The notes beneath the pieces are model-generated. The model was not told where the DNA came from, did not search any database, and saw nothing but the letters and a program-made list of their open reading frames with translations. The translations under genes and the position numbers were made by a program. From assembly GCA_950295325.1 (NCBI GenBank), contig OX485809.1:10664001-10728000 (forward strand): a stretch of 64,000 bases of DNA, given 5' to 3'. Origin of the DNA: Polytrichum commune (Eukaryota; Streptophyta; Polytrichopsida; Polytrichales; Polytrichaceae). Below are positions 15,406 through 59,991 of the stretch, in pieces (positions within the stretch are counted from its first letter, which is position 1; each line of letters begins with the position of its first letter).

Positions 15406-15425
15406 TTTGGGTCGACCGACCCAAA
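15406..15425. repeat. 20-bp palindrome TTTGGGTCG-AC-CGACCCAAA, exonic
   Basis: Within the X copy 1 coding exon, read as FGSTDPN. The equivalent site in copy 2 is 55366-55385, with a different centre. Confidence 0.95.
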
Positions 15426-15474
15426 CCCACCATCCACTGTAGTGTCCGAAGGGCCCTCTCCAGATGCAGGACAG

Positions 15475-15494
15475 TTTGGGTCGGGCGACCCAAA
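15475..15494. repeat. 20-bp palindrome, centre GG, exonic
   Basis: Read as FGSGDPN in the X copy 1 exon. Equivalent site in copy 2: 55297-55316 (FGSADPN). Confidence 0.95.
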
Positions 15495-15773
15495 CCCCGT
15501 TGCAGCGCAGTCCTCCCTTGACCAACATGGGTGTCAACTAGACATGGCCATGCTAGATGTTGAAGGCCTGCAAGGGCATGGTGATACCTCTACTCCTAAC
15601 CAAATCGATGAACCCATGTATGATGCACTTGCGGAGATTGGTTTAGGACAAGGGCCTGATGCCGATCGTTTGCAGGAGAAGGTTCCGATGTCGTCGGAGA
15701 AGGCGGTGGCGAGAGAGGCGGGGCAGCGGGGACGGTGGAGGCTTCCACATCGTCGAGACATGACCAGGGCGAG

Positions 15774-16258
15774 GTAATACACTGAGCCCTCCCAGTTTGG
15801 GTCGACCGACCCAAACTTCCTGGGTCACTGTCTTGTTGGCGTGGTCGTGTCCCCCTTGCTAGGAGGAAATGCACACCCCCTACCCCCCGTGCTCTACACT
15901 TGCTCCCCCTCCCCCCAACGTGCCCCCCCGCGATCCCCTTCGTCTCGTCTGCATTCGACTACGCTCGACCTTGGCGGCGCGCAACCAATTTTGTGGATGT
16001 AGAATTAGGATAGTGTGAATGCCCTTGTTCACCGCGGTCCCCCCTCATCAAATTGTACATAGAGATTTGTAAAAATAAAATTATTATTTCTGGCGCCCAT
16101 ATGTTTGCATCCGTGTCCCAATGTATGTTGTTCCCCTTGTATGTTTTTGTTGCCACCAATGGTCCAATTCTTCTTGTGTTTGCACAAAATTTCCGTTCTG
16201 CTTGAGATGGACATAGCATAACATAGTCCTCGCCGCCTTTTCTCGCTCGTCGCCGCAG
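15774..16258 (+). other. Intron of gene X copy 1
   Basis: Bounded by GAG|gtaata and gccgcag|G. It contains one 20-bp palindrome and otherwise shows no gene. It is recognisably homologous to the copy 2 intron 54516-55034. Confidence 0.8.
15796..15815. repeat. 20-bp palindrome, centre AC, intronic
   Basis: Lies 23 bp into the intron after the donor at 15774. Equivalent to 54993-55012 in copy 2. Confidence 0.95.
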
Positions 16259-17071
16259 GGTTCGGAGCATAGCGTCGCAACTCCCCACCGATCCTCCCCG
16301 AGGAGTGTGGAGGACAGCGTGCTGGTCCCCCCGATTTTGCCCTCGCCACCTTTGCCTCCCAAGACCCGGTTCCTGGTGCTAGACCTCAACGGGGTCCTTG
16401 TCCAGTGCGTGCATTGTCCGAGGGTCCCAACGGTCCCTTTCTGCAAGCCCGAGGACGCCAACTACGATGGTCCCCCCGCGTACATCAAAAGCAAGCTAGT
16501 GTACCTCCGCCCGTGGCTTCAACGCTTCCTGCAGGTCGCCCTATCCAAATGGTGGGTGATCATTTGGAGCTCCATGAAGTCCGAGAATACCCAGGCCGTC
16601 GTGGAGTTCATCTTCAAGGGACTCCAACCCCCGTGCTTGGTCCTAGGACATGATTCTTGTAAAACATTGTATACCCCCGAGGGCAGGGTTGTGAAGAAGC
16701 CCAACAACCCCGCCGTAAACCAATTTCTTAAGGTCTTGAAGCCAGTCGTATGGGACCAGCGTCCGACCATGGTCGGCTGTCCCTACGACGTTTGTCCCAC
16801 CCGTGACAACACGTTGATGGTGGACGACAGCGCTTCCAAAAACATTTTGAACCCGACCTCAAACTTCATAGTTTGCCCCACGTGGACGGTCGAGAAGGTC
16901 CGAGACCGCTTTTTGTTAGACCTACTTAAGTACATTCAAACGCTCGTGGGGAGCGGACTACCCGTGCCCCGGTTCCTTAGTTGTAATCCGATAGGCGAAA
17001 GATACATGGATCCGAAGGACTATATGTACAGAGAGTTGTACGCTCACGCGAAATATAATAAATTCATTTGA
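16259..17071 (+). CDS. FCP1/NIF-like HAD phosphatase-domain exon, gene X copy 1
   Basis: A 270-residue open exon in phase with the predicted splice. The domain is the FCP1/Scp/NIF type of HAD phosphatase, whose members remove phosphates from proteins such as the RNA polymerase II tail. Motif I is LVLDLNGVLV: the nucleophile Asp is kept, but the usual second Asp (DxDGT) is Asn. WSSMK fits motif II, KKPNNP may supply the Lys, and NTLMVDDSASKN fits the acidic motif IV. It ends HAKYNKFI and a TGA, also conserved in copy 2. With the general acid/base Asp missing, weak or no hydrolysis is possible; a binding role is an alternative. Activity is not established from sequence. Confidence 0.85.
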   Translation, partial: GSEHSVATPHRSSPRSVEDSVLVPPILPSPPLPPKTRFLVLDLNGVLVQCVHCPRVPTVPFCKPEDANYDGPPAYIKSKLVYLRPWLQRFLQVALSKWWVIIWSSMKSENTQAVVEFIFKGLQPPCLVLGHDSCKTLYTPEGRVVKKPNNPAVNQFLKVLKPVVWDQRPTMVGCPYDVCPTRDNTLMVDDSASKNILNPTSNFIVCPTWTVEKVRDRFLLDLLKYIQTLVGSGLPVPRFLSCNPIGERYMDPKDYMYRELYAHAKYNKFI

Positions 17072-17182
17072 GATACTACATGGTGTGCCATTGTGTGTGA
17101 TATATTATGCCTCAATTGTATATCGATTTTCACATGCTCCCCCCTCCCCTTGGGTTTTGTTTTGTTTCCTTTTTTGCGCCAG

Positions 17183-17536
17183 CGTTTGGAGCCCTCGATT
17201 GAGATCGTCAGCGAATCAAACTTGGGGAGCTTCTTCTACGAGACCGTCTACGATGCCGCGTCCACCATCGACTACTCCAAGGAGCCTCTTGACGCCGGCG
17301 TCGTCGATAGCCCCCCACCCAAGCAAATCTTCCGGCATTCTCCGTCCCCGTCGCCACTCAAGGGCATAAATCGCAAATGCGTCCGGACGTCCCCCTCTCG
17401 GCCCGGCGGCAGTAGTACACCTCAACGGCGGCTACGGATGGACGCTCGGCCAACGAAGAGTGGAACCCTTGCTATTCCTTTGCGGGACGCCTTGCCCCTC
17501 CTCGCCAACTCCGACGCGAATGGCCCCGGTGACAAG
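17183..17536 (+). CDS. Conserved downstream exon of the gene X locus
   Basis: Acceptor gcgccag|CGT and donor AAG|gtgacc bound an open 118-codon exon rich in Ser, Pro and Arg. The counterpart in copy 2 (37742-37945 plus 38920-39077) keeps the frame, which supports real coding. How it joins the phosphatase exon, which ends in a stop 112 bp upstream, is unclear: a second transcript or alternative splicing. No domain recognised. Confidence 0.55.
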
Positions 17537-17671
17537 GTGACCCCCCCCCCCCCCACACACACATGGTTAACCGCGCATTACAATCATTTTGCTCTAAAAA
17601 AATGAACGTGTGACACGTTTGGGTCTTCCTCCCTAAACTAACACATGTGGTCTTGCATTGACACGTTGCAG

Positions 17672-17974
17672 GTTGCTCCCACCCGTAGACCTATGCGGGC
17701 TAGTGCGTCCGTCGAGTTGGAGCGTTTCTACTCCATGACCAGAAATGCAAGACAGTCCACTTCATCGTATTCGAATTCTTCGTCGTATAATTCAGGCGGC
17801 CGACGGAATCCAAAATGTGTTTTTGATGGCGGTCACCCCAAGAATGGCTATAGTCGCGGGGCGGAGATTTTCAAGAATGTTGAAGCAATGCGAGCAAAAG
17901 AAGCCGCAGCAAAAGAAAAAGAGGCAAAAGAAAAAAAAGAAAAAGAAAAAGAGGTAGTCTCCGAGGCTAGATAG
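17672..17974 (+). CDS. Conserved terminal exon of the gene X locus
   Basis: Begins after the acceptor cgttgcag|GTTGCT. It encodes a basic segment with a Ser/Asn-rich patch (SYSNSSSYNSGG), then a Lys/Glu/Ala-rich helix (MRAKEAAAKEKEAKEK) and a stop. Copy 2 has the same exon at 37309-37602 with a slightly different end. The function is unknown; the charged tail looks like a coiled or disordered C-terminus. Confidence 0.55.
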   Translation, partial: VAPTRRPMRASASVELERFYSMTRNARQSTSSYSNSSSYNSGGRRNPKCVFDGGHPKNGYSRGAEIFKNVEAMRAKEAAAKEKEAKEKKEKEKEVVSEAR

Positions 17975-18659
17975 GCCATAGTAGGCGTAGGGTTTTGGGC
18001 CATAGGCAAGAACATTTTGGGTCGCACTATCCAATGGATGTGTGGTGTTAGCATGCTATGCATTTTACATGCCACACTTTGTATGTTTTTTTTTGCAATA
18101 ATATAAGTGTCACATGATTTCCCCTTCCATATGGTCCAAGGTTTGGATTGCCCTACCTAAACCATCACAAATATGAGTTTGGAATATTTTGTATGTTATA
18201 TTATATTGGTTCACATATTTCCCCTTCAATATGATCTATGGTTTGGATTGCCCTACCTAAACCATATTCATACAAGTTTTTGTGCGATAATATGAATGTT
18301 TTAAGATTTCCCCTTCAACTTGGCCTAAGGTTTGGATTGCCCGCCCTAAACAATCCCAAACATGAGTTATTAATGGGGTTCTTGTTCTAAACACCCGCTT
18401 CAAAGTGTTCGCATCTTACAACTTTCTCCAATATGTGTTCCATTTATCCTTGTTCTTATTTCTGTGAATGTCTCAAAATGCCCAAAAAGTCTCAATTTAA
18501 CGAATATAGTGTTACTTTCAAAAGTCTCCGATTAACGAATATAGTGTTAGACCCTATAAGGTTATTTTCCAACCTTGAAGATGGTTCTTTATTCTGTACA
18601 TCTTTCAAATAAATGAGTAAAGGTGTACAACCTTTCTTTATTGCTCCCTTGAATTGCAA
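17975..18659. repeat. 3' flank of gene X copy 1 with short repeats
   Basis: AT-rich DNA with a repeated motif of the form TTTCCCCTTC, then GGTTTGGATTGCCC and CCTAAAC, about every 90-120 bp (near 18120, 18220, 18310). The inverted counterpart lies at 36570-37190, so the duplication of gene X includes this flank. Confidence 0.75.
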
Positions 18660-26175: not shown

Positions 26176-26218
26176 GACTAGATCATTTCTAGATACATTA
26201 GAATTAGGAGCTCAACTT

Positions 26219-26297
26219 GAAGAGGAGATCAGGAGAAGGAGAAGGAGAAGGAGAAGGAGAAGGTGAAGGTGAAGGTGAAGGTGAAGGTGAAGGTGCA
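26219..26297 (+). repeat. GAGAAG/GTGAAG microsatellite
   Basis: Tandem hexamers, first GAGAAG then GTGAAG, an abrupt change of unit halfway. Confidence 0.9.
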
Positions 26298-26717
26298 TCG
26301 ATATGATGTGAGGGCCTGAATGTGTAATATGTGGTTGATACCTCTATAGGTAGAGGGGGGCAAGGTTAGATTTTTGGATTTGAAAATCCATATGTGGATG
26401 CTTGCGAGGTCTGGTGGGGGGGCCCTAATGGTCTGTCGGATCCGACAAACCCTTTGGGTGCCTCCTTCAGAACCTCAGGTGGATGCTTGCGAGGTCTGGT
26501 GGGGGGGCCCTAATGGCCTCTGTCGGATCCGATAGCCCATTGGAAGCCATCTCGGGGACCTCTCAATTTATTTATTTTGTTTCAATTTGGTCTCAGGTGA
26601 GGGCTTGTATGGTTTTAATTTCTGAATTTTCTAGCTAAGGTGCTTGTGGGAGAGCTCCAAAGGGAGGGCCCTAGGCCTCTGTCGGATCCGACAGCCCATT
26701 GGAAGCCATCTTGGGGA

Positions 26718-26913
26718 CCCAGAAGCTTCAGACCATCATAACTTTCTTGTATGATGTCTGATTTGAACAACGAACCAGTCCATCTTTATCTACGCTTCAC
26801 GTAGATGCCCATGGACCCCTCACTTGACCCATTCAGGTAAGTATCGACGACGTTATGCCTGTTTGAACCTTGGCAGTCCTGGGAATCACTCCCAGGCACT
26901 GCTGGACCAGGGC
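26718..26913 (-). repeat. Piece of family A LTR embedded in the tandem array (1)
   Basis: About 195 bp matching the middle of a family A LTR in reverse orientation, from CAGCTTCAGACCATC to CACTGCTGGACCAGGG. It stops exactly where the LTR has its own palindrome, and the array palindrome follows instead. Confidence 0.85.
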
Positions 26914-28270
26914 TCTGTCGGATCCGACAGCCCATTGGAAGCCATCTTGGGGACCTCTCAAGATATTTTTTTTTGCTTCAATTTGGTATGGATGAGGGCT
27001 GAGGTGAGGACTTGTATGGTTTTAAATTCTGAATTTTTTAGCTAAGGTGCTTGTGGGAGAGCTCCAAAGGGAGGGCTCTAGACCTCTGTCGGATCCGACA
27101 GCCCATTGGAAGCTATCTCGGGGACCTCTCAATTTATTTATTTTGTTTCAATTTGGTCTCAAGTGAGGGCTTGTATGGTTTTAATTTCTGAATTTTCTAG
27201 CTAAGGTGCTTGTGGGAGAGCTCCAAAGGGAGGGCCCTAGGCCTCTGTCGGATCCGACAGCCCATTGGAAGCCATCTCGGGGACCTCTCAATTTATTTAT
27301 TTTGTTTCAATTTGGTCTCAGGTGAGGGCTAAGGTGAGGGCTAAGGTGAGGGCTTGTATGGTTTTTTATCCAAATTTTCTAGCTAAGGTGCTTGTGGGAG
27401 AGCTCCAAAGGGAGGGCCCTAGGCCTCTGTCGGATCCGACAGCCCATTGGAAGCCATCTTGGGGACCTCTCAATTTATTTATTTTGTTTCAATTTGGTCT
27501 CAGGTGAGGGCTTGTATGGTTTTAATTTCTGAATTTTCTAGCTAATGTGCTTGTGGGAGAGCTCCAAATGGAGGGCCCTAGACCTCTGTCGGATCCGACA
27601 GCCCATTGGAAGCCATCTCGGGGACCTCTCAATTTATTTATTTTGTTTCAATTTGGTCTCAGGTGAGGGCTTGTATGGTTTTAATTTCTGAATTTTCTAG
27701 CTAAGGTGCTTGTGGGAGAGCTCCAAATGGAGGGCCCTAGGCGTCTGTCGGATCCGACAGCCCATTGGAAGCCATCTTGGAGACCTCTCAATTTATTTAT
27801 TTTGTTTCAATTTGTTTTCAGGTGCGGGCTTGTATGGTTTTAATTTCTGAATTTTCTAGCTAAGGTGCTTGTGGGAGAGCTTCAAAGGGAGGGCCCTAGG
27901 CCTCTGTCGGATCCGACAGCCCATTGGAAGCCATCTCGGGGACCTCTCAATTTATTTATTTTGTTTCAATTTGGTCTCAGGTGAGGGCTAAGGTGAGGGC
28001 TTGTATGGTTTTTTATCCAAATTTTCTAGCTAAGGTGCTTGTGGGAGAGCTCCAAAGGGAGGGCCCTAGGCCTCTGTCGGATCCGACAGCCCATTGGAAG
28101 CCATCTTGGGGACCTCTCAATTTATTTATTTTGTTTCAATTTGGTCTCAGGTGAGGGCTTGTATGGTTTTAATTTCTGAATTTTCTAGCTAAGGTGCTTG
28201 TGGGAGAGCTCCAAATGGAGGGCCCTAGGCCTCTGTCGGATCCGACAGCCCATTGGAAGCCATATTGGGG

Positions 28271-28469
28271 ACCCAGCAGCTTCAGACCATCATAACTTTC
28301 TTGTATGATGTCTGATTTGAACAACCAACCAGTCCATCTTCATCTACGCTTGACGTTGATGCCGATGGACCGCTCACTTGACCCATTCAGGTAAGTATTG
28401 ACGACGTTATGCCTGTTTGAACCTTGGCAGTCCCGGGAATCACTCCCAGGCACTGCTGGGCCAGGGCTC
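28271..28469 (-). repeat. Piece of family A LTR embedded in the tandem array (2)
   Basis: A second copy of the same piece with the same edges, so it was amplified together with array units. Confidence 0.85.
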
Positions 28470-28790
28470 TGTCGGATCCGACAGCCCATTGGAAGCCATC
28501 TTGGGGACCTCTCAAGATATTTTTTTTTGCTTCAATTTGGTATGGATGAGGGCTGAGGTGAGGACTTGTATGGTTTTAAATTCTGAATTTTCTAGCTAAG
28601 GTGCTTGTGGGAGAGCTCCAAAGGGAGGGCTCTAGGCCTCTGTCAGATCCGACAGCCCATTGGAAGCCATCTCGGGGACCTCTCAATTTATTTATTTTGT
28701 TTCAATTTGGTCTCAGGTGAGGGCCGAGGTGAGGGCTTGTATGGTTTTTTTTCCAAATTTTCTAGGTAATGTGCTTGTGGGAGAGGGCTT

Positions 28791-29445
28791 AGGGGGCTTA
28801 GAGGTTTGTTGTTTGTTGAATTTAATTTGATTTTGCTTATGGTTGAGGGCTATTTTGAGGGCTTTTTGGGTTGTATTTTGTGAAATCTCGGGTTAGGGTG
28901 GTAATGAGAGAGGTTTGAAGGGGGCCTAAGAGGTTAGTTTTTAGTTGAAATTTATTTGATTTTGCTTTGAGAAAGGGCTTATGTGTGGGCTTGTTTTGTT
29001 TTATTTCGTGAATTTTCTGGTTAGGGGGCTAGTGGGAGAGGGCTTAGGGGGGCTTTGAGGTTTTCTTTTTGTTGAAATAGATTTGATTTAGCTTATGGGC
29101 TCGGGCAGATGTGAGGGCTTGGATGGTTTTTTTTCTGGAATTTCTGGTTAAGGTGCTAGTGGGAGAGCTTTGAAGGGGGGCTTAGAGGTTTGCTTTGGTT
29201 GAAATTGATTTGCCTTTGCTTATGGGTGAGGGCGGGTATGGTTTTTTTTAAATTTTCTAGCTAGTGTGCTAGTGGGAGCGGGCTAAAGTGATGGCTTGAG
29301 AGGTTTGTTTTAGTTGCAAATGATTTGATTTTGCTTTTGGGAGAGGTCAAATGGGTTCCCACTTCGGAACCTTTTAAAGTGGTCATTCTTATGCATATTT
29401 TGTTCATTTGGCTGGTCCTCACCTTTGTAACTAATTGCTTCTCAG
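28791..29445 (+). repeat. Degenerate array units upstream of the gene Y exon
   Basis: Diverged copies of the GAGGGCTT...TATGGTTTT and TTAGAGGTTTG...TTGAAAT motifs. A polypyrimidine stretch and ctcag at 29441-29445 form the splice acceptor of the first visible exon. Confidence 0.7.
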
Positions 29446-29658
29446 GAGATCATTGAGATGGTGGGGGATGGAGAGTCTTTGGATGTTGGGGTTCGCAATG
29501 GTGCTAAGTCATCCCTTAGTGTTGAGGAGCATAAGGAGCAAAGGTCTTTGTTGTCACTTGCTAAAAATATTGGGCTTACACCAGGTAGTAGTGAACCCCA
29601 TACACCCGGGATGTCACTCTGCGGCTGACCTGCAGAATCGGATGTCGGTGTTCGTGCA

Positions 29659-30185
29659 ATGGAGTATCGGATTCGCCACAATTTAAAGAAAGATAGCTTC
29701 TCAGTTGTTGAGGGCATGAAGATACAACCGGTAGAAAAGTCCTCTATGAGAATCCCCCTCTGCAGGTTGATTCACATGCCATTGGTTCGCCCAACCCTCC
29801 GCAACGACGTTACAAAGCTCATGGCGGCATTTCAATTTGGATACCGAGTTGGGTCTGCCACTTTGTACGTGTCTACTACAAATGAATCTGGAGATAATCC
29901 ATTCATTTCTGCGAAAGACAGGCGTGAATGGGGAGAGCTTTGGGTTGCAGAAAATGATAAGTTTGAGTCTTTTCTACGCGCGGATAAGGACTTGATGAGC
30001 CTCAGTGGATGTATGTTCTTCATGTATGATGGTAACCACCGCTTGCTTGCTTGGAAGGAGTGTATCGAATCAGATCACAAGGACGATGCACTCTAGTATG
30101 AGAAACATGGTTGCCCAGAATGTGTTGTCCTCGACACAACGGGTGGGCGTGGGGACGTCCTTAACGCAATGCACGACATTAACAA
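29659..30185 (+). pseudogene. DGNHR domain segment of gene Y
   Basis: From RIPLCRLIHMPLVRP to DGNHRLLAWKE, then CPECVVLDTTGG and a helix with NAMHDINKANQT across the splice. ParB-family and DGQHR-family proteins have an equivalent D-G-x-H-R turn, a following strand and an Asn-containing helix. A TAG at 30094-30096 interrupts between them; a one-base change from a sense codon such as TGG would explain it. Confidence 0.6.
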
Positions 30186-30736
30186 GTAAGTATGTTAGTT
30201 TTTCAAATCGTTTTTTCCTTCATTTTTTGATTGGCATCTAATGGCATTTGTCTCAACCGCTACAGGGCTAACCAGACCGCTCACGTTAAAACTAGCCTCG
30301 TACACACTCTACACCGCATTCAAAAATACGGTTCGTATGATCTTAGCTACTACAAGCCATTATTGACCGAGGAGCAATTCCAAGCGTGCAAGAGAAAAGG
30401 CCCCAAGAGCCCTTGGTACCCGCTGACCCAAGACCTTATGGTGTCCTTCATTTTCAATGTAAGTCACTCCAAATTCCTCAACCTTCTACTTCGCATTCAT
30501 TACTCTTAGTTATGATCTTACAATTTTGAATATATGTTCAGCAAGAGATAGCCGATGCGGTAGATGAGGCAGCCCAAATTTACAAGGAGGAAGTTCCTCC
30601 AGAGGAGCAATCTGGGAACCGATTGGGTGAGGTATTGGACGCTATGATTAAGAAGACGACTGAGGAACTTGGTCACAAGTTTAACAAACAACAATCAATC
30701 GCAAACCCCGCCCTTGGAAAACAGTTCCTAGAGGAG

Positions 30737-31580
30737 GTACGTTTTGGTTGAATTAAATTTGAATGTCCTTATGGGAAAGGTCCTTATTGTTGAGGGCTAT
30801 TGTGAGGGCTTGTATGGTTGTATTTTGTGGAATTTCAGGTTGGGGGGCTAATGAGAGAGCTTTGAAGGGGCGCTTAGAGGCTTCGAATTTGTTGAAATTG
30901 ATTTGATTTTGGTTATGGATGAGGGTTGAGGTAAGGGCTTGTATGGTTTTAATTTTTGAATTTCTGGTTAGGGGGCTAATGAGAGAGGTTTGAAGGGGGC
31001 TTAGAGGTTTGTTTTTTGTTAAATTTGATTTGATTTTGCTTTGCGAAAGGGCTAATGCGTGGGCTCGTATGGTTTTAATTTTTGAATTTCTGGTTAAGGT
31101 GCTAGTGGGAGAGCTCCAAAGGGAGGGCCATGGGCCTCTGTTGGATCCGACAGCCCCAGGGTAGCCACCTTGGGGACCTCTCATGTTATTTTTTTTTGCT
31201 TCAATTTGGTGTGAGGTGAGGGCTGACGTGAGGGCTGGGATGGTTTTTTTTTTGCATTTTCTAGCTAAGGTGCTTGTGGGGGAGGGCTTAGGGGGGCTTA
31301 GAGGTATTCATTTTGTTGAAATTGATTTGATTTAGCTTATTGTTGAGGGCTATTGTGAGGGCTTGTATGGTTGTATTTTGAGAAATTTATGGTTAGGGTG
31401 CTATTGAGAGAGGTTTGAAGGGGGCCTAAGAGGTTAGTTTTTAGTTGAAATAGATTTGATTTGAATGTGCTTATGGGAGAGGTCTCAAGTGAGGGCTTAC
31501 TGCTAGCATTCTTTGCAGCACTTTCTGAGAATATATTCTCAAATTTACTTCGCCTTCTTTTTTGATTGCAAGTGTTTCAG
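30737..31580 (+). repeat. Repeat-filled intron 3 of gene Y
   Basis: Bounded by GAG|gtacgt and gtttcag|ATT. Filled with diverged copies of the unit seen at 26390-29440, including one TGTTGGATCCGACA palindrome near 31138. No coding signal. Confidence 0.8.
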
Positions 31581-32799
31581 ATTACTAGGCATTATAGCGC
31601 CTACCATTCTCAAAAGATTGAGATGACATTGGAGAAATTGCAACTTATTGCCACAGCTGCAGTGGAGCCAGAGTATAAAGTCCGTTGGTTAAAGTGGTGG
31701 AACAGTGGAAGTTTCAATCGTGAAGCTATCCGGTTTCCCAAAAGTCCTGCAAGCAAGGATACCTTGAAACCTTGGCTCAATAAAACTGCGTTTTGGGCAG
31801 GGGTACGTCTATACTCCTTATCCATCCTTACCTTTCGACTCTTCCTTTTGTGCCAATTCTTATCTTGGCCTTGAATTTGTCCACAGCTAGAGGATGCCGC
31901 GGTCAAGGAGTTACCCGATATACTTAATGCCTTGGGTGGGCTTGACGGAGACGTGGAAGTTGATTCATTGCCGGATTACTTGGAGAAGTGGCGAATCTGT
32001 CTCTGGGATAAGGCGTTCATTGGTCACTTCTCAGGGTCAGATATATACGGAAAGGGGACGTGGTGGAAGGATGTCAAAGGCGCTGACAACATTGTCAAGC
32101 GCTTAATCTGTAGGTACGTTAGTTGGAAAATCTTGTGTTCACCTCATTTATTTCAAACCATTTGTTTTCTAAGTTGCTAATTGGCCTCACTCCTTCGTTG
32201 TCAAGGTACATCAAGCACGAGCTCTTCAAGAAGAAGGCTTTGAAGAAGCTCCCTCCGTTTCTTGATGCATGGTCTGATTCCTCTTCACCTACCTTCATAT
32301 TTTCCCCGGCTCAAAAGCGCAACTTCTCCCTCCCGCATCTCCGCGAGTGTTGTTGGTACTTGGAATGTAAGAGGACGTGGCAACCGGATGAGGAGGCGGA
32401 GTTGAAGGTTCGGCTCTCCGGTGGAGAGCCTTCCCTGCCTCATGCTCAAAGCGATGAGGTTGTTCTCCTTGACAGTCAACTTCCGGAGGCGGATGAGGTT
32501 GTTGCGACTGTCGATGAGGCCAACACACAAAACTCCAAGAGGAGGAACGTGCAACTCAAGACGAATCATCACTCAAGAAGCGCGCGAGGAAGCTCAAGAC
32601 TGTGGAGGATGATCACCCTCCCCCTGCTTCACCTGAGGCGGCAGTTGCATCTACTCCATCTCTTAGTGAAGTTCCTACTCTATCCAGGCCACCTCCTCCG
32701 CCCATTCTTTCATCTGCTAGGCGTCCTCCCGTTGTTTTAGAATGCATTTTGAATGCCTCTATCCTTCATCAACGTCGTCATTTTCAGGAGGTTTCCAAC

Positions 32800-33761
32800 T
32801 TCATTCTTTCTCTTCCACCCTCCTATCCGCGGAGAGCTCTAGGCGTTGCGAGGTCAGATGTGGGCATGGCTGATCTTGTCATTGCCGACATCCCGGAGAA
32901 CCTGCCTGTACCCAATGTCTCCGATCCTTCCTATAGTGTACCTTCCTGGAATGCATTGGATACCGATTTTCTAGGTGAGCTCTTCGATTTTGCGGATGAG
33001 ATCCTGCATGACAATGGAGCTCTCCTCCTCTTTCATGCAGATGACAATGGTGACTTCAAGGAGAGCATTCAAGACCACTTCGCTGCTTTTGGGTTCACGA
33101 TCTTTAAGGAGTGGCTGGGAGTCAACCGTCTTCGCCTTCATTCAGCTAAACATGTGGACAAGACCACCAACCTCTTCCAGGTTGTCTTACTTGTTCGTGC
33201 CACCAAAACAATTGGATCCGACCTTGATAAGCGGCCCCGACACTCGTCATTCCGCCTTCGCGATGCCAATGAGCTCAAGGCTCTTGGCATTGAGCTCGAT
33301 ATGGATGATGCGATTATGAATTATACCGTAACTCCTCTCATGGACGGCTCCAAAGCTTGGCGTGGTCCCCGGGAGAAAGATATTTCTTTCATGTCCTCCT
33401 TGATAATGGCCACTACGGACATTGGACAGGTTGTGGTGGACGTTAATGCGGGCGTTGGTATGTCCTACTTCACTTGCCATCATATCCAAGTTTTCAATTT
33501 CTAAGTTTTTTTTTTTTTTTTTTTTTCCTTTGCTAACATTTCCTCCGCAACAGGGACTTCTATCCATGCATGCAGGCAGCTTGGGCGCCATGTCGTTGCT
33601 CTTGAGGAGGACGAGGACACCTTCAACCGTGTCCTTAAGCCACTTAAGAGTGTTAAGCCTGCGGTGAAGGCTCCATCCATTGTTGTTGCTTCCACGCAGG
33701 CTTCACAAGGCACGCAGAAGAGGTTGCCGGCCTTGAAGCGATCGAGGCCAAAGTCCTCGCA
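32800..33761 (+). pseudogene. Methyltransferase-like domain of gene Y
   Basis: Motif IV region MADLVIADIPENLPV (about 32866-32912), then helices and strands including GALLLFHADDNG and TNLFQVVLLVRA. After the last splice comes motif I, DVNAGVGTS, with GRHVVALEEDEDTF beyond. This order is that of beta-class amino-methyltransferases. The catalytic D-P-P-Y is D-I-P-E and F-x-G-x-G is N-A-G-V-G, so SAM binding may remain but the aromatic residue that holds the target base is missing. Confidence 0.6.
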
Positions 33762-34309
33762 GTAAGTGAGTATGATGACCTTCTAAGTTGCTTCTTTTCC
33801 TTGTCCACTTAGCTTTTACATTTTCCATCCTTTTTCTTACAATTTTCATGCTTGTTTTCAGACTTGGCCTTGGAGCGGATGTGTTTGGTACGCCTACCAA
33901 GGGATTCTCTTTGCCAATCTATGCCCATGATATGGCGATGGTACTAGCGGCACAACCTTCTCCTAGCAAAGCTAGTACCCCGTCTCCACGTTATGACCCC
34001 CGTGCCTTAGACTTCTTCGATGTTCTTGCAGAGGTGGATAATGAATGCCATACCTTAGATTCCTCTTCAGATGAGGGCGGCCATGAGGGGAGTATCTTTG
34101 GAAGTAGGGAATCTAGTAGTGACAACGTCATTGTTGATTGATTTTTGGTTTGATTGATTGGTATTTGGATTTATAAAGTGTGGTGTGGTTTTCAATATTC
34201 CAATTATCTTGTTGAATGCATCTTGTCGTTGTTCTCAAATAACACTACACTTTTGTGGTCGTCAACTAGTATACAATCTAAAGACAAGTAGCCAAACCAA
34301 ATACACATA

Positions 34310-35050
34310 ACATTTTGATTTCTCAAGCATATCCTACCCACAAAAAAGAGGCCTCGGATCCGAGGCCTCTTTCCAACCTCCTCCTCATGCTAGAACATAC
34401 AAGAAATGGCCAAATGCAAAGACAAGTAGCCAACTCAAATATACATAACATTTTGATTTTCAAGCATAACCTACCCACAACTAAGAGGCCTCGGATCCGA
34501 GGCCTCTTCCTTTAGGTCCTCCTCATGCACTACACATACAAGAAATGGCCGAATGCAAAGACAAGTAGCCAACTCAAATATACATAACATTTTGATTTTC
34601 AAGCATAACCTACCCACAACTAAGAGGCCTCGGATCCGAGGCCTCTTCCTTTAGGTCCTCCTCATGCACTACACATACAAGAAATGGCCGAATGCAAAGA
34701 CAAGTAGCCAACTCAAATATACATAACATTTTGATTTTCAAGCATAACCTACCCACAACTAAGAGGCCTCGGATCCGAGGCCTCTTCCTTTAGGTCCTCC
34801 TCATGCACTACACATACAAGAAATGGCCGAATGCAAAGACAAGTAGCCAACTCAAATATACATAACATTTTGATTTTCAAGCATAACCTACCCACAACTA
34901 AGAGGCCTCGGATCCGAGGCCTCTTCCTTTAGGTCCTCCTCATGCACTACACATACAAGAAATGGCCGAATGCAAAGACAAGTAGCCAACTCAAATATAC
35001 ATAACATTTTGATTTTCAAGCATAACCTACCCACAACTAAGAGGCCTCTT
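34310..35050 (+). repeat. 139-bp tandem array with GAGGCCTCGGATCCGAGGCC palindromes
   Basis: Palindrome centres recur at 34354, 34491, 34630, 34769 and 34908, i.e. every 137-139 bp, with a last partial unit lacking the palindrome at 35040. Units 2-5 are nearly identical, so the expansion is recent. It starts about 170 bp after the gene Y stop. Confidence 0.95.
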
Positions 35051-39077: not shown

Positions 39078-39226
39078 GGCGCAAAAAAGGAAACGAAACA
39101 AAACCCAAGGGAGGAGGGTTTGATAGAGTGCGTGAAAATCAAGATACATATGAAGCATATATTACACAAAATGAACGGGCGCGCGCGCACACATACATAC
39201 ATACACATACAAACACACGTGGTGTC

Positions 39227-39910
39227 TCAAATGAGCTTGTTAAATTTCGCGTGAGATAACAACTCTCTGTACAAATGGTCTCGTGGATCCAAGTATCGCT
39301 CGCCTATGGGATTATTCCTAACAAAATTGTTTATGGGCAGTCCGCTTCCGCAGAGCGCCTGGAGGTATTTACCAAGGTCTAACAAAAATCGGTCCCGGAC
39401 CTTCTCAACCGTCCACGTAGGGCAAACTATGAGGTTGGCCGTCGGGTTCAACATGTTCTTTGCGGCGCTGTCGTCCACCATGAGCGTGTTGTCGAGGGTG
39501 GGGCGGACGTCGTAGGAGACGCCTATCAAGGACGGACGCTGGTCCCAAAAAATGGGCTTCAAGACCTTGAGATATTGGGGGGAAGCGGGGTTGTTTGGTT
39601 TCTTGACGACTTTGCCGTCCTGTGTGTACAATATTCTACAGGCATCCTGTGCTAGGACCATGCAGGGGGGCTCAATGCCCTTGAAGATGAACTCCATGAT
39701 GGCATTGGTGTTCTCGGCCTTCATGGAGCTCCACACAACCACCCACCATCGTTGTTGGGTGATCTGGAGGAAGGTCCGAAGCCACGGGCGGAGGTGAACT
39801 AGCTTGCTCTTTATGAACGTGGGCGGCCTGTCGTAATTCGCGTCCTCGGGCTTGCAAAAGGGCACCGTGGGGGTCCTAGGGCAATGAACGCATTGGACGA
39901 GGACCCCGTT
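39227..39910 (-). pseudogene. FCP1-like domain of gene X copy 2 (part after the insertion)
   Basis: Read on the minus strand it starts NGVLVQCVHCPR directly at the retrotransposon edge and runs to HAKFNKLI and stop. It keeps VVVWSSMK, KKPNNPA and NTLMVDDSAAKN. The missing start, ending KKRFLVLDLN, is at 54382-54515. The frame is otherwise open and clearly diverged from copy 1, so the duplication is much older than the insertion. Confidence 0.9.
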
Positions 39911-40851
39911 TGTCGCGCACCTCTCCATGAGGAGTGCCCGCAACACCATGGGCACAAGGGGGACCCCGGAGTGACACCCGGGACTTGTGACGCCATTGGT
40001 GAGAGGGACCAAGTGATCCTAAGGTGGGTGAGGGCCCCGGGCGTTTAGAACGCCTCCCACCCACAAAGACTAGGAGTCATGAGGGTAAAGCCATAAGCTA
40101 TGAGTAGCTTATGGCGTCCCGATTCTAGAATGCTAAAGAACACCTCAATCTGAGGTGTGAGCTAGGAGATATGGCACTTTGAGTGGGATGCTGTCCCGGG
40201 ACAGCGCCCTGGAACAGCAGGGGCCTGGGAGTGGCTCCCGGGACTGCAAAGGTTTAAACAGGCATAACTTCCTCAATACTTGCCCAAATAGGGCAAGTGA
40301 GGTGTCCATAGGGATCTACGTGAAATGTAGATGACGATAGAGTGGTTGGTTGTTAGATTCAGAGACCGCACGTGGAAGTTATGAAGGTCTGAAGCTGCAG
40401 GGAGGCTTCTAGACCCAGCGGCTAAGGGAAAATGTCTACTTGGCCCCAACTCTTGGTAGAGAGACAAAAGGGATGTTGACGGTGGGGGAGGGGCCCCGCC
40501 AAAAGTCCTAGAGGCTTATATGGGTGAGGCGGCTTTGCCGACCGACCCCCCCCGGAGCATACTTGGCAATGTGCTCCGGGTGGTTGTAGTGTTGTCCTAG
40601 CAACACTATGACCAAGTAGGGAGTGGACTTCCATGGATGGAAGTCCACCTTAGCGATGGGTTACCTACTAAGGGGAAAGAGTCCCGAATGCATGTGTAGG
40701 AGGGTTTGGTGACCAAATATGGGATTGAAGGTCCGCGGTTTTGGGAGCTAACCATGCATGTGCGTGGGATGTGCAGGTTAGCGCTCGGGACACTTGCTAG
40801 AGTTGGAAAGCGATTGAGCTAAGTGGAGAAAAACTAGCAAGGGTCGCGACA
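39911..40851 (+). repeat. 5' LTR of family B element
   Basis: 941 bp, TGTCGCGCAC to GTCGCGACA. Shares with family A the ends, the CCCGGG-centred palindrome region and most of its plan, but differs in many positions and in the segment GCGGCTTTGCCGACCGAC. Confidence 0.97.
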
Positions 40852-53428: not shown

Positions 53429-53440
53429 GGTGGGGGTGAG
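53429..53440 (+). other. Polypurine tract of family B element
   Basis: GGTGGGGGTGAG directly before the 3' LTR. Confidence 0.88.
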
Positions 53441-54381
53441 TGTCGCGCACCTCTCCATGAGGAGTGCCCGCAACACCATGGGCACAAGGGGGACCCCGGA
53501 GTGACACCCGGGACTTGTGACGCCATTGGTGAGAGGGACCAAGTGATCCTAAGGTGGGTGAGGGCCCCGGGCGTTTAGAACGCCTCCCACCCACAAAGAC
53601 TAGGAGTCATGAGGGTAAAGCCATAAGCTATGAGTAGCTTATGGCGTCCCGATTCTAGAATGCTAAAGAACACCTCAATCTGAGGTGTGAGCTAGGAGAT
53701 ATGGCACTTTGAGTGGGATGCTGTCCCGGGACAGCGCCCTGGAACAGCAGGGGCCTGGGAGTGGCTCCCGGGACTGCAAAGGTTTAAACAGGCATAACTT
53801 CCTCAATACTTGCCCAAATAGGGCAAGTGAGGTGTCCATAGGGATCTACGTGAAATGTAGATGACGATAGAGTGGTTGGTTGTTAGATTCAGAGACCGCA
53901 CGTGGAAGTTATGAAGGTCTGAAGCTGCAGGGAGGCTTCTAGACCCAGCGGCTAAGGGAAAATGTCTACTTGGCCCCAACTCTTGGTAGAGAGACAAAAG
54001 GGATGTTGACGGTGGGGGAGGGGCCCCGCCAAAAGTCCTAGAGGCTTATATGGGTGAGGCGGCTTTGCCGACCGACCCCCCCCGGAGCATACTTGGCAAT
54101 GTGCTCCGGGTGGTTGTAGTGTTGTCCTAGCAACACTATGACCAAGTAGGGAGTGGACTTCCATGGATGGAAGTCCACCTTAGCGATGGGTTACCTACTA
54201 AGGGGAAAGAGTCCCGAATGCATGTGTAGGAGGGTTTGGTGACCAAATATGGGATTGAAGGTCCGCGGTTTTGGGAGCTAACCATGCATGTGCGTGGGAT
54301 GTGCAGGTTAGCGCTCGGGACACTTGCTAGAGTTGGAAAGCGATTGAGCTAAGTGGAGAAAAACTAGCAAGGGTCGCGACA
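53441..54381 (+). repeat. 3' LTR of family B element
   Basis: 941 bp, indistinguishable by eye from 39911-40851, followed by ccgtt. Confidence 0.97.
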
Positions 54382-54515
54382 CCGTTCAGGTCTAACACCA
54401 GGAATCGTTTCTTCGGCCGCGGGGGCGGGGCGGGTAAAATCGGGGGCGCCGCCGCGCTACCCTCTCCGCTCCTTGGAGAAGAGCGTCGGGGAGCCGCTAC
54501 ACTATGCTCCGAGCC
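54382..54515 (-). pseudogene. Start of the FCP1-like exon of gene X copy 2
   Basis: After acceptor tatccgcag|GGC it reads GSEHSV... to KKRFLVLDLN and is then cut by the retrotransposon. It aligns with 16259-16390 of copy 1. Confidence 0.9.
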
Positions 54516-55034
54516 CTGCGGATACGAGCGAGAGAAAACGGTGGGCGACTTATGTCATGCTATGTCCAAACGAAGCATTAAGGAAACGAGTGTTCTCGGT
54601 GCAAACACAAAACCATTTGATTCATTTTGGAGGGGGTGCAACAAGGGATACAAGAGAGGCAAGAGCATACAACATACATTCAAACACAGGATACAAGTAT
54701 ATAGGAGTAAAAAATGGCGATTATATTGTATACAATGCTCTATGTACATCTTGATTGGGGGGAGCCGCGTTGAATGATGCATTCAAACTAGCCTACTTCT
54801 ACATCTAGCAAAAATTGAAGAGACGGGCCGCCGTGATGAAGACTTCGTCGCAAGCCGGGGGGTATGTGGACGAACGAATGGTCGGGGGGATGTGGCGAAG
54901 GGCGCGAGTGCCGGGGGGGGGGGGGCGACGTGTGCGTGAGTTTAGGGTAGCTAGGGGACACGACCAAGGCAAGAAGACAAAGACCCATGGAGTTTGGGTC
55001 GACCGACCCAAACTGAGTGGGGTCAGTGCATTAC
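54516..55034 (-). other. Intron 3 of gene X copy 2
   Basis: Homologous to 15774-16258. Contains a palindrome at 54993-55012 and a run of 13 G at about 54913. Confidence 0.75.
54993..55012. repeat. 20-bp palindrome, intronic
   Basis: TTTGGGTCG-AC-CGACCCAAA on plus, i.e. centre GT in gene orientation. The same intron site in copy 1 has AC. Confidence 0.95.
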
Positions 55035-55296
55035 CTCGCCTTGGTCACGCCTTGACGACGTGGATGCCATCACCGCGTGCGCTGCCCCACCTCTGTCACC
55101 GCCGCCTCCGACGATGACGTCAGCCGCAACCTGCTCCTGCAAAGGCTGACTGTCAGGCCTTTGTCCCAACCCAACCTCCGCATGCGCATTATGCATTGGT
55201 TCATCGACTGGGTTAGGAGTAGAGGTATCACCAGGCCCTTACGGGCCTTCAACATCTAACATGGGCTCGTCCACCGGGGTCTGGTCGGGGACGGGG

Positions 55297-55316
55297 TTTG
55301 GGTCGGCCGACCCAAA
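55297..55316. repeat. 20-bp palindrome, centre GC, exonic
   Basis: Minus strand reads FGSADPN. Equivalent of 15475-15494. Confidence 0.95.
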
Positions 55317-55365
55317 CCCTGCTGCTTGGCGAGCGTCACTCTGGGACGCTGCAACGTCGGCACTG

Positions 55366-55385
55366 TTTGGGTCGGACGACCCAAA
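55366..55385. repeat. 20-bp palindrome, centre GA on plus, exonic
   Basis: Minus strand reads FGSSDPN. Equivalent of 15406-15425. Confidence 0.95.
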
Positions 55386-56567
55386 CATGTGGGGGTCGTC
55401 CCGCTGGTGGTGTGGGGGCGAGAGGATGGGAGGCCGGAGCGGTGGGGGCGCCAACGAGTTGGACGCTCTAGGGACGCGCCAAAGGTTGGGGTCGTCCACC
55501 TGCTGGACGGGCGTGCGGCTGCAGCAACTGCGCGAAGCTGAAGGAATGCTGCAGCGTGGGCCGCGGGGCGATATCCTGTGGCGGGAAGCCTGCGGGCAAG
55601 TGCGGGAATGAACTCGGGGGAGCCATCACCAATCCCTGCGCCAGCATGCCCTGGATCACTTGCGTTATGAGCTCCGCTTGGGACGGAGGTTGGGCCATCG
55701 CCCTTTGCCGCTCCTGCTCCAACAGGAGAGCCCTCAACTCTGCGACTTCATTGCGGACCGAGGGCTCCTCGGCGGCAGCCTTCTCCAATCGGACGCGCTG
55801 CTCCTCGTCCCGGAGCATTTTGGCGTTGGCCTCTTCCACGGTGAGGACCTCCGGTTTCACCCTCACCATCCCCGCGAACGCTGTGGGGGAGGCAGGATCC
55901 GACCTCAGCCTCTTCGCGAGCTCCATGTCGTCCTCGTCTTCGGAGCTTATGGCGATCGTCTCCTCCACCGCATAGTCCCCGTACAGCTTCTTGCCCTTCA
56001 GCATTCGCCGCTCCCTGAAGGTGGACGTCGCGTCCCTCGAATACATGTCCTTCGCGTCGGCCACCGTGAGGACGGGCACTAGCTTGCTCTGCGGTGTGGC
56101 AGCCCGCATGGCCTTCTTCCGCTGAGGGGCCTCGGATTCTTGAGTGAATCATGTTGCCCCTTCCTCCACCTCTCCTTCCACTTTCTTCTCCTCCTCCTCT
56201 TCCTCTTCCTCCTCCGCAACCTCGCCACCTGCCTCCACGGACGGATTGCCCGGATGCAATCCGATGAGGGGTTCTGGCAATTGAACGGGGGCCCGCATGG
56301 CGAATTCGCCTGGGTTGATTCGCCTGGCCATATCCAATGGGTTCTTGCCCCCGTCAACGATCTCTTCGACGTAGGATCCGGGTATCCAGTCGAGGATGTC
56401 CATTTTCTTCGCCAGTGCTTTTTGGGTCCTGTAGAATTGAACATCGGTATCCTCCACATAGGAGTAGATGTTCAACCCAGACATCTGCACAATCCAAATC
56501 AATAGTATTAGTATCACAAATGAAGAATAAGCAAAAATAACACCCAAAACAAAACAAGAATACTTAG

Positions 56568-56587
56568 TTTGGGTCGGTCGACCCAAA
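56568..56587. repeat. 20-bp palindrome, centre GT, intron 2
   Basis: First of three closely spaced copies in the intron between exons 3 and 2. Confidence 0.95.
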
Positions 56588-56602
56588 CCAAGCATGCCCT
56601 AG

Positions 56603-56622
56603 TTTGGGTCGCTCGACCCAAA
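56603..56622. repeat. 20-bp palindrome, centre CT, intron 2
   Basis: Part of a 35-bp direct duplication with the next copy (shared flank CAAGCATGCCCTAG). Confidence 0.95.
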
Positions 56623-56637
56623 CCAAGCATGCCCTAG

Positions 56638-56657
56638 TTTGGGTCGCTCGACCCAAA
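56638..56657. repeat. 20-bp palindrome, centre CT, intron 2
   Basis: Third copy in the cluster, same centre as its duplicate at 56603. Confidence 0.95.
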
Positions 56658-56691
56658 CCACGCATATAGATCCACGACGTTAGTTTCTTAC

Positions 56692-58027
56692 CATTGTTGC
56701 AAAAATGGGTTTGGAGCCCCCGAAGACGTTGAAGATGAAGTCCCCCCTCTTCGTGAGGGTCCTCATCATCCGTAGGTAAAAATCCATCCGCAGCTCATCC
56801 GCGGGGTAGTTGGCGTACTTCGCCTCGTCGTACAAACTCCTGCTGGTGCCCAACCCTTCTGGGACTTGGAAAAGCTTTTCCATCCGGGCTATAGGATGGT
56901 TTGGCACCTTCTGCAGCTCAGCTTTGTACACAAAGTACAAACACAACACACAGACTATCTTCGTCTTCTTGTCTTTCAATGAGCTGTACGCCCCCTCCGC
57001 CGATGCAGCAACGTAATGAGATTTTGAGACGGCGTACTCTGGTTGCAATTTACGCACGATCTCGTACACCTGCTCCGCCCTCCTGTCCTCGACAATCCAC
57101 AACCAGACGTCGACCTCCCTGAATTTGGGGCCGGCGTAGTCCATGAACTTGGTGAAGAACGGCTCGTAAAACGGGGTGCTCATTGTCCCCTCGAATGAGG
57201 CTCCAGGAATGTTCCTGAAGTTTATCATTCCGAAGGGGAAGCGGTCCCCGGCTGCAGTCCTGATCGCCTTCCTGGACTCAGAGCCCGGCCAACCTTGGAT
57301 CTTTAGAGGCTCGAGGGAGACCAAGTTGAAGTGAGCTTCGCCCTCGAACCTGACGATCTTCTTCTCCTTTATAAAGTTGGAGAAGGCACGCGCGGAGTGT
57401 TCGGGAAACGCCCGGTTCCTCCCCCCCCCCCTTCACGAGCTTGGACTTGAGGAAGTCGTCTCCCGCCTCCCTCATGAGTGCCGCCATGGACGCACTGGTG
57501 AACTTGTACTCGGCTTTGAATGCCCTCCAGTGCGCCTCGTCAACCTCTCCGTCCATGATGAGCTTCTTCTCGGGCACCAGCTTGTGCAGCTCTTGGACGA
57601 TGGTCGTCTTCTTCTTCCTGTTCTCCGTCCATTCCTTCAAGGTGTAGCATGAAGGGACGAAGATCTTTGGCTTCGTGAAGACGATCTTCGGGTGAACCCA
57701 ACATCTCTTCGCCGTCGGCTCCACGTGGAGGATGTGGGACGCCGCCTTTCCCACCTCTGTCTCCGAGAGACCTTGAAGAGCTCTGAAGAACTCCCTCATC
57801 AATGGCTTCATTTGCTTGAAGCGCGCAGTCTGGTTGTACAGAATGCCGGTGTCGGGATCGATGAGGTCTCCTATCTCGTGTTTTTCGAAGACAGTCTTCA
57901 ATTTTGTCCACATGGAGTCGGACGCTGTGATCAAGTAGATTTCTCCTCTTAGCTCGTTATATTTTTTTTGCTTGTGGCTAGCGTTGTCAATAGAAGAGAA
58001 TTTATTGATCATCTGGTATTTGAAGTC
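56692..58027 (-). pseudogene. Exon 2 of gene X copy 2
   Basis: Acceptor gtacag|GAC and donor ATG|gtaaga. About 445 codons with no domain I recognise; motifs include PSCYTLKEWTENRKKKT, EAHWRAFKAEYKFT and VWLWIVEDRRAEQVYEIV. The length is one base over a multiple of three, and the frame changes at a run of 11 C (57420-57430); a ten-base run would restore it. This may be a real frameshift or a sequencing error. Confidence 0.7.
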
Positions 58028-58087
58028 CTGTACATGAAGTCAAGAACATATGTTAGAGAACACATCATGAAAAAAATGGAACAGCAG

Positions 58088-58107
58088 TTTGGGTCGATCG
58101 ACCCAAA
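58088..58107. repeat. 20-bp palindrome, centre AT, intron 1
   Basis: Perfect arms. Confidence 0.95.
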
Positions 58108-58144
58108 CTTTAAATCTGATGAAGACTATAAGACAATCCAAGAG

Positions 58145-58164
58145 TTTGGGTCGATCGACCCAAT
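58145..58164. repeat. 20-bp palindrome, centre AT, one mismatch, intron 1
   Basis: The right arm ends CCAAT instead of CCAAA. Confidence 0.9.
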
Positions 58165-58201
58165 CTACAAAACTTGCGAAGAAAATAAAACAATACAAGA
58201 G

Positions 58202-58221
58202 TTTGGGTCAATCGACCCAAA
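58202..58221. repeat. 20-bp palindrome, one mismatch, intron 1
   Basis: Left arm TTTGGGTCA; lies 5 bp from the splice donor of exon 1. Confidence 0.9.
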
Positions 58222-58230
58222 CTTACTCAC

Positions 58231-59556
58231 CTCCCATTTTGGGTTTTTGTCTTTTGCATTCTCCATTTCCTTGGGAGGCCTGCCATAGAACTCCCACACA
58301 TCCCTCGAGGCCATTATATTCCTAATCCAGGATGCCTGATACGCCTTCTTTTTATTCCCCATGTTGAAAAACCTGGAGATGTCACTGAGGACGGTCTCGT
58401 TGTCCGACCAAACCACCAGTGCCTTCCATACCTTCAGCTTCTCCTTCTGGTTGTTGGGGTCGTCCCATTCACTCATCAGCTGGATTTTTTTGGAGGCCTC
58501 GACACTGTGCTGGCCGTCAATCAGCCAGAAATCTCCTTTAGAAATCGCCGGCCACATATCAGCCGTAGGCATTCTTTTTAGCCCCTGGGGCATCACGACA
58601 ATTGTCTGCCCGTCGTCCTTGAACTGCCTGCCCAAGATTTGAGCGACCATCCAGTCGACATAGACATTCTCCTTGGCTCGGACACATTTTTCAGGTGGCG
58701 CAAGGTGGCATTGTGCAATGTTCACCTCGAACTGGAAGTCCCTGCTCATGAAGAAGCAATGGAGGCATTTCGTCTCAAAATTGTCGTTGATTTTTTGAAT
58801 TTCCCCAGCATCAACCTCTTGGCCAGGCTTGGGCATCCGCAACTCTGGCGAAACTGGCTCGGTGGTCATGACTGATGACTCTCTTGCCCTTTTCGACGGG
58901 GTCGTCTGCCGGCTTCCTGAAGGCGTTGGCGTCTCGCTGTCAGCCGGAGTCGAGGTAGTGCTCGTTCTTCTAGAATCTGCCGGGACCGCCCGCGGAATCC
59001 TCACAGATTGGGGTCTGGAGGAACCTGCTCCTTCTTCTGTCTTGGCCTTCCGCCTGACAGGTTGTTGCGTTTTTGGTTTGCTTTGCAACGCCTTATTCAA
59101 AACCGTGATCGTTTGTTTCAGTTTTGTGAACCTGCTAGCGACCTTGGTGTTCGATACAGTGCCATCTATGAAGATGGTCTCCGGTTTTATGGTCTCCGGG
59201 TCAACGCACATCTCCTTGGCGTATAGGGGGTCGAAAGCCTCGGAGAATTGGTGCATGAACATATGCACGTTCTGCACGGCGGAGTTCTCTAGAATAACGT
59301 CCACGTGCTCCCCGAGAGCTTGGACGGAAGCAACCTCCCATCCCGTCAGCGTTGCCCAGGTGTGTTGCTCGTGGGTCCCCACTTTCACCACGAACAAGAG
59401 CTTGTACTGGGAGGCTTTCACAACCTGAACGGACCACGCAAGAACGATTCCATCCTTTGGGACGTATGAGTTGTCCTGTGGAGTTTCGTACTCCTCCCAA
59501 AGGTGGTCTGGGGCGAGCATGAACCACCTCTCTCCAGGTCTCTTTTTAGTGGCCAT
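58231..59556 (-). CDS. Exon 1 of gene X copy 2 with a DGQHS (ParB/DGQHR-like) domain
   Basis: 442 codons, fully open, from ATG 59556 to the donor GAG|gtgagt. The first 150 residues show no known domain, and a Ser/Thr/Pro-rich linker follows. Then VYVDWMVAQILGRQF, IVVMPQGLKRM, FWLIDGQHSVEASKKIQ, LKVWKALVVWSDNE and ISRFFNMGNKKKAYQ follow in order. The D-G-x-H turn, next strand and Asn helix resemble DGQHR/ParB-type proteins, here with Ser for the usual Arg. ATG 59556 is preceded by ttacag, so it may also be the first codon after a 5' UTR intron; a frame extends upstream to 59661 through a palindrome. Confidence 0.72.
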
Positions 59557-59583
59557 CTGTAAGTCCAGAAACAAAATTGTTAG

Positions 59584-59603
59584 TTTAGGTCGATCGACCC
59601 AAA
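59584..59603. repeat. 20-bp palindrome, centre AT, one mismatch, 5' of exon 1
   Basis: TTTAGGTCG left arm; 28 bp upstream of the ATG in gene orientation. Confidence 0.9.
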
Positions 59604-59668
59604 GTTTTTCAACTTGGATGTAACATAAGTGCGAATTGAAGGGTGCTCTACTGGCCATCATGAATAGG

Positions 59669-59688
59669 TTTGGGTCGACCGACCCAAA
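59669..59688. repeat. 20-bp palindrome, centre AC, 5' of exon 1
   Basis: Perfect arms. Confidence 0.95.
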
Positions 59689-59939
59689 CCCAAGCCTCGA
59701 ATAGCCTAATCGTATAAGAATTATTGGTAGAGTTAGGGTCTTAAGAATATGAATATTGTGTAGTGGTCAAATTATCCAACAGGAGAGCAATTTGTGGTGA
59801 CCTTCTAGAGCCGCGCTGGACGTATGTGGACATGCCAACAAATATCAAACGATTTCAAATTATAGCCATTTGAATATAATTTCTTGTTGATGGTGGGAAG
59901 GATGTTTATTTTGGGATATTGGATTTGTAGGTTGCAGAG

Positions 59940-59959
59940 TTTGGGTCGAGCGACCCAAA
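59940..59959. repeat. 20-bp palindrome, centre AG, promoter-proximal
   Basis: Flanked, with the next copy, by CAGCTGCAGAG repeats. Confidence 0.95.
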
Positions 59960-59971
59960 CCAGCTGCAGAG

Positions 59972-59991
59972 TTTGGGTCGGTCGACCCAAA
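59972..59991. repeat. 20-bp palindrome, centre GT, promoter-proximal
   Basis: 32 bp from the previous copy, start to start, and 35-55 bp downstream of the TATA-like box. Confidence 0.95.

Follow-up and report, generated by a model that had tools for sequence, protein, structure and literature searches.

In bacteria, ParB/parS, Noc/NBS and KorB are systems with palindromic sites, and the palindromic elements of Rickettsia are ~100–150-bp inserts in reading frames. CACTA/En-Spm transposons produce 2–3-bp duplications and contain multiple internal short repeats. VANC proteins of Arabidopsis recognise short motifs that lie in introns and in tandem repeats between genes; the motifs differ among related VANCs, that of VANC21 being YAGTATTAY (PMC5735166, in which the word 'palindrome' does not occur). 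VANDAL/VANC anti-silencing is also covered in PMC10398659, and VirB, which is related to ParB, counteracts silencing in bacteria (PMC10653881). Here, we followed up a family of 16 short palindromes, in shorthand the TTTGGGTCG palindrome, in a 64,000-nucleotide stretch of Polytrichum commune DNA (contig OX485809.1, positions 10,664,001 to 10,728,000; the window). We find all 16 to lie inside a DNA transposon of ~17 kb, element 1, of which the window contains two broken copies. In the parts of the genome examined, the sites belong to element 1 and a second family, element 2; their arms are conserved, and a gene subfamily related to that of element 2, in element 3, is accompanied by a different palindrome. 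Judging from such sequence patterns, the palindromes may be built-in cis-acting control sites of large DNA transposons, putatively bound by an element-encoded protein, a reading on which we regard the scales as evenly poised.

The 16 palindromes lie exactly where a sequence-only reading of the window had placed them, 13 of them exact and three with one mismatch. The arms of the exact copies are longer than the nine bases it had given, measuring 10–12 bp in the form GTTTGGGTCG-NN-CGACCCAAAC. At up to three mismatches, the window holds 18 matches as compared to a mean of 0.03 in 100 dinucleotide shuffles; the two additional ones (18016 and 37225, three mismatches) have a single good arm each and are located behind gene Y. 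The genome-wide comparison with chance that had been proposed alongside (408 Mb, 64 contigs; C1 to C7 are contig labels and L-numbers locus labels) returned 9,731 exact matches and none for the reversed control pattern, placing the motif above chance frequency. Among the matches listed, which comprise 100 sites (all on C1, below 2.16 Mb), three element 1 copies account for 81 and element 2 loci for 19. Sites with a CA/TG centre number 38 genome-wide, of which the seven on C1 and one on C2 were placed relative to pairs of the terminal inverted repeats (TIRs) of element 1: six of the seven on C1 fall inside TIR pairs spanning 0.99% of that contig, the seventh is 15 kb away from an unpaired TIR, and the C2 site (758067) is within a listed TIR pair. 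A motif scan of viral contigs gave no exact match, that of prokaryote genomes an exact match in one contig, and six palindrome strings had no occurrence in the literature searched.

What is the element that carries these sites? Gene X and gene Y had been taken for separate loci, and a second palindrome system in the window had been overlooked. A comparison of six copies reveals that both genes belong to a single unit bounded by inverted copies of AACACTATATTCGTTAAATTGAGAC. These TIRs occur 395 times forward and 407 times reverse genome-wide at up to one mismatch (control, 0), and on C1 convergent pairs less than 50 kb apart number 35, with two of 3.6–4.8 kb, 21 of 14.4–18.5 kb and 12 of 22–44 kb. 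A 4-bp target duplication was present in 13/13 other element 1 copies for which both flanks were read, copy B with its mutated right TIR among them; the two ends of window copy II do not match each other. Window copy I is missing its left part, the place of which is occupied by a repeat resembling a long terminal repeat. The element contains a DUF7869 gene (PF25273, E=2e-41), which we infer to be a putative transposase, a 522-aa open reading frame (ORF), gene X and gene Y; the term 'DUF7869' had no occurrence in the literature searched. The gene X ORFs gave no Pfam match at E up to 1, and a gene X probe, with the best 150 of 942 candidate copies scored, covered contigs C1 to C7. Five other element 1 copies counted contain 18 to 38 sites each, all interior. 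As a side observation, the plant-telomere-type repeat CCTAAAC occurs four times inside the element (window 61737-61764).

A second family, element 2, carries palindromes identical to those of element 1 at L010, L011+L012 and L019, without similarity to gene X or gene Y, and a fourth locus (L078, C5) has nine sites upstream of its gene. This gene contains a DGNHR motif; other ORFs of the element appear MULE-like by eye, with a SWIM match at E=0.076, below its cut-off. With an element 2 exon probe, the best 150 of 1,189 candidates were scored: 97 are near-full-length at 81–100% identity, 23 show 44–48% identity (subfamily 2b) and the remainder are partial or intermediate. Eight 2b loci on C1 below 37.7 Mb had no CTGTCGGATCCGACAG site within 360 kb among the matches listed. 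Element 3 is a relative of element 2 (40–43% identity in the first exon) within the window, and its gene is flanked by two other palindromes, CTGTCGGATCCGACAG and AAGAGGCCTCGGATCCGAGGCCTCTT, which have the core TCGGATCCGA in common. CTGTCGGATCCGACAG is found 374 times genome-wide (control, 0). Among the matches listed, 50 of its sites (all on C1) form six clusters, with 46 at most 10 kb and all 50 at most 50 kb from an element 3 gene; in the same stretch, the matches listed place CTGTCGGATCCGACAG within 10 kb of 1/13 gene X loci and 0/10 element 2 loci. Copy number suggests that elements 2 and 3 are likewise transposons. Two further observations concern element 2: a half-changed site, GTTTGGGTCGCTCGATCGAAAC, recurs in its arrays (L012:6700-7060 and L019:7560-7960), and L076:1550-2653, near one copy, encodes a hAT C-terminal dimerisation region (PF05699, E=1.1e-6).

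Comparing eight pairs of element 1 copies, arm identity at homologous positions was 88–100% and at least 97% in six of them, while flank identity was 58–62%, except for 87% in the close pair W/A, and centre identity 30–79%. For diverged copies, the arms range from 88 to 99% as against ~59% in the flanks. Counted by base, the arms agree at 125/126 positions in W/C, 125/126 in W/B, 177/180 in A/C and 141/144 in E/C, pairs whose centres are 30–50% identical. The comparison was seeded on exact palindromes of one copy, the MAFFT alignment may be drawn to palindromes, and the eight pairs are not independent. Arms are conserved at single dispersed sites as well as in arrays, and the arrays have periods of ~32, 35, 57, 64 and 78 bp, with linkers that differ around an identical palindrome. 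Sites follow a TATATAAA sequence, occupy the leader, come immediately after a likely 5′ splice site or lie in probable introns further on (introns being predicted from sequence); in copy C, two sites fall within an open frame.

How might such sites work? A symmetric protein dimer would bind the two half-sites flanking the free 2-bp centre. Sites would be placed downstream of the promoter, within introns and in the spaces separating genes, and many would belong to arrays grown by tandem duplication around the site; the transposon-encoded protein would mark its own family and maintain its transcription (anti-silencing) or tune its expression. The candidate binder in element 1 is gene X; for elements 2 and 3 it is the ParB/sulfiredoxin-like gene. 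Protein binding, the identity of the binder and anti-silencing are what we infer here; self-recognition with anti-silencing or transcriptional control is favoured since the pattern matches that of VANC and since VirB counters silencing. Among the three guesses of the sequence-only reading, a dimer-binding site appears to fit best, since the two half-sites are fixed, the 2-bp centre between them is free and it is sequence that is conserved rather than mere pairing. Its recombinase site is not supported, as no recombinase domain was reported for the scanned ORFs and the sites are interior, and its mobile hairpin fares no better (see below).

The likeness of the putative binders to ParB differs between elements. 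For the element 2/3 domain, 25 of the first 28 Foldseek matches were ParB, Noc, KorB, sulfiredoxin or SbnI, the other three being Atu1540, which weakly suggests that the modelled protein adopts a ParB/sulfiredoxin fold. For 12 members, the Pfam and NCBIfam families listed at E up to 10 included no ParB model, in a search whose HMMER filters drop weak matches. In sulfiredoxin, the catalytic Cys sits in a GCHR motif; the corresponding motif reads GNHR in 11/12 members and GDHR in 1/12, without that Cys. Gene X resembles ParB by motif-level alignment only, and its predicted model has a pLDDT of 32. ParB is not mentioned in PMC6446971, and the literature searched, at the level of titles and beginnings of abstracts, contained no link of ParB to eukaryotic transposons.

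Several observations weigh against element-encoded recognition. Arm conservation has its limits, with identities of 0.924 in A/B and 0.881 in D/B. More importantly, elements 1 and 2 have no detectable protein similarity despite their common palindrome; a host factor would explain this, as would the use by one family of the other's protein. Under the former account, each family would independently carry a strong site to which a host transcription or chromatin factor binds, with a different one in element 3, in keeping with sites behind the TATATAAA sequence and in leader and introns. Yet all 100 sites among the matches listed on C1 fall inside the two families, and elements 2 and 3, although related, do not have the same site. 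We consider host-factor sites a serious contender, albeit an unlikely one.

Less probable still, and in our view doubtful, is that mobility requires the palindromes in cis as transposase-binding sites, comparable to the subterminal repeats of CACTA elements. TIR transposons can have many short sites of this kind, and one long palindrome array adjoins the 522-aa ORF of element 1. However, the sites are interior and are found with two different sets of transposase-like ORFs. Two short element 1 copies, L060 and L071 (3.6 and 4.8 kb), with exact TIRs and 4-bp duplications, contain no exact palindrome, which speaks against this account without being decisive. We dropped these copies as proof of site-free mobility: the L060 junction is unique, and so the deletion in L060 may postdate its insertion.

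Behind the ParB/sulfiredoxin-like gene, stretches at window 32198-33645, L075:918-1831 and L012:1474-1848 have the look of a permuted DNA methyltransferase by eye. A DNA methyltransferase-like part of the element 2/3 gene could recognise the palindromes as targets of modification, and both palindromes contain CpG, with GGATCC in the element 3 core. We hold this to be quite improbable, as Pfam yielded no match for three such ORFs at E up to 10, and in element 1, whose site is that of element 2, no ORF of this kind was recognised. The many copies within probable introns and the leader might alternatively act as RNA hairpins in transcripts, affecting splicing or stability. A 2-nt hairpin loop is too tight, however, long arrays lie between genes, and the arms hardly vary in sequence; what has been retained is the sequence and not merely the pairing, which favours protein–DNA recognition and leaves the hairpin account highly improbable. 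Least probable of all is a mobile palindromic mini-element, or a neutral by-product of tandem repetition, for which variation in array copy number might be cited: element 1 copies differ by tandem units with their linkers, no solo 20-bp insertion, as a Rickettsia-type element would leave, was seen in the blocks viewed of the six-copy alignment, the motif travels inside a large transposon, and arrays with different linkers have the palindrome in common, its arms being conserved at single sites too.

Table 1. Features of the window (positions count from its first base)
Feature	Position	Strand	Remark
Element 1 copy I, right-hand part (gene X end, gene Y, right TIR)	15335..18513	+	~95% identity to right parts of L016, L017 copies
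Palindrome 1	15406..15425	+	exact
Palindrome 2	15475..15494	+	exact
Palindrome 3	15796..15815	+	exact
Gene Y ORF of copy I, NIF/CTD-phosphatase-like	16217..17071	+	PF03031 E=9e-14
Right TIR, copy I	18489..18513	-	
Element 3, relative of element 2	26200..35100	+	limits approximate
11 copies of CTGTCGGATCCGACAG	26679..28484	.	upstream of element 3 gene
ParB/sulfiredoxin-like exon with DGNHR motif, element 3	29746..30186	+	one internal stop
Element 3, second stretch similar to element 2 gene	31620..31985	+	
Element 3, later stretches similar to element 2	32198..33645	+	methyltransferase-like by eye only
5 copies of AAGAGGCCTCGGATCCGAGGCCTCTT in 139-bp units	34345..34925	.	downstream of element 3 gene; first one base longer per arm
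Right TIR, copy II (element on minus strand)	36575..36599	+	
Element 1 copy II, right-hand part with gene Y	36575..39911	-	interrupted near 39911, similarity again from ~54378
Element 1 copy II, gene X part	54378..64000	-	runs beyond window to left TIR near C7:10734140
Palindrome 4	54993..55012	+	exact
Palindrome 5	55297..55316	+	exact
Palindrome 6	55366..55385	+	exact
Gene X further ORF	55468..56148	-	part of last exon
Palindrome 7	56568..56587	+	exact; 35-bp array between gene X ORFs (probable intron)
Palindrome 8	56603..56622	+	exact; 35-bp array between gene X ORFs
Palindrome 9	56638..56657	+	exact; 35-bp array between gene X ORFs
Gene X further ORF	56680..57432	-	
Gene X further ORF	57278..58039	-	
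Palindrome 10	58088..58107	+	exact; 57-bp array, probable intron 58037-58230
Palindrome 11	58145..58164	+	one mismatch; probable intron 58037-58230
Palindrome 12	58202..58221	+	one mismatch; directly behind likely 5′ splice site of probable intron 58037-58230
Gene X first coding exon, 442 aa, with FWLIDGQHSVEASKK	58231..59556	-	ParB-like by motif only
Palindrome 13	59584..59603	+	one mismatch; leader, 27 bases from likely 3′ splice site preceding ATG
Palindrome 14	59669..59688	+	exact; gene X leader
Palindrome 15	59940..59959	+	exact; downstream of TATATAAA sequence
Palindrome 16	59972..59991	+	exact; downstream of TATATAAA sequence

Transposon self-marking and escape from silencing are known in detail for few families. 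The present system offers hundreds of copies, three kinds of element, near-invariant palindromes and a natural difference in site between related proteins, and is suited to testing the coevolution of a transposon-encoded DNA recogniser with its sites as well as the recruitment of a bacterial-type ParB fold. Tentatively, one might go further and envisage eukaryotic transposons with ParB-parS-like self-recognition, wherein ParB/sulfiredoxin-fold proteins load at family-specific palindromes in their own promoters and introns, spread and keep the element open, with two unrelated lineages using one site and a related lineage having switched both protein and site; we deem this bolder proposal unlikely, if conceivable.

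How does the locus compare with the systems described? Like the Rickettsia elements, the palindromes occur in genes, but here they are 20–24-bp sites inside transposons. With CACTA/En-Spm, element 1 has in common CACTA within its inverted ends and multiple internal short repeats, and it differs by its 4-bp duplications, DUF7869 gene and interior sites. ParB/parS, Noc, KorB and VirB provide the parallel of a palindromic site and of a fold that the element 2/3 domain weakly matches; here, in contrast, the element is eukaryotic, there is no sequence-level match, and five element 1 copies contain 18 to 38 sites each. The likeness to VANDAL/VANC lies in a family-specific short motif in (predicted) introns and intergenic DNA, multiplied in tandem, in related families with different motifs (here one subfamily pair, element 2 versus 3) and in an extra gene within the element. 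Element 1, by contrast, has TIRs, DUF7869 and duplications of 4 bp, and it is likened to VANDAL/VANC by description rather than by VANC sequence.

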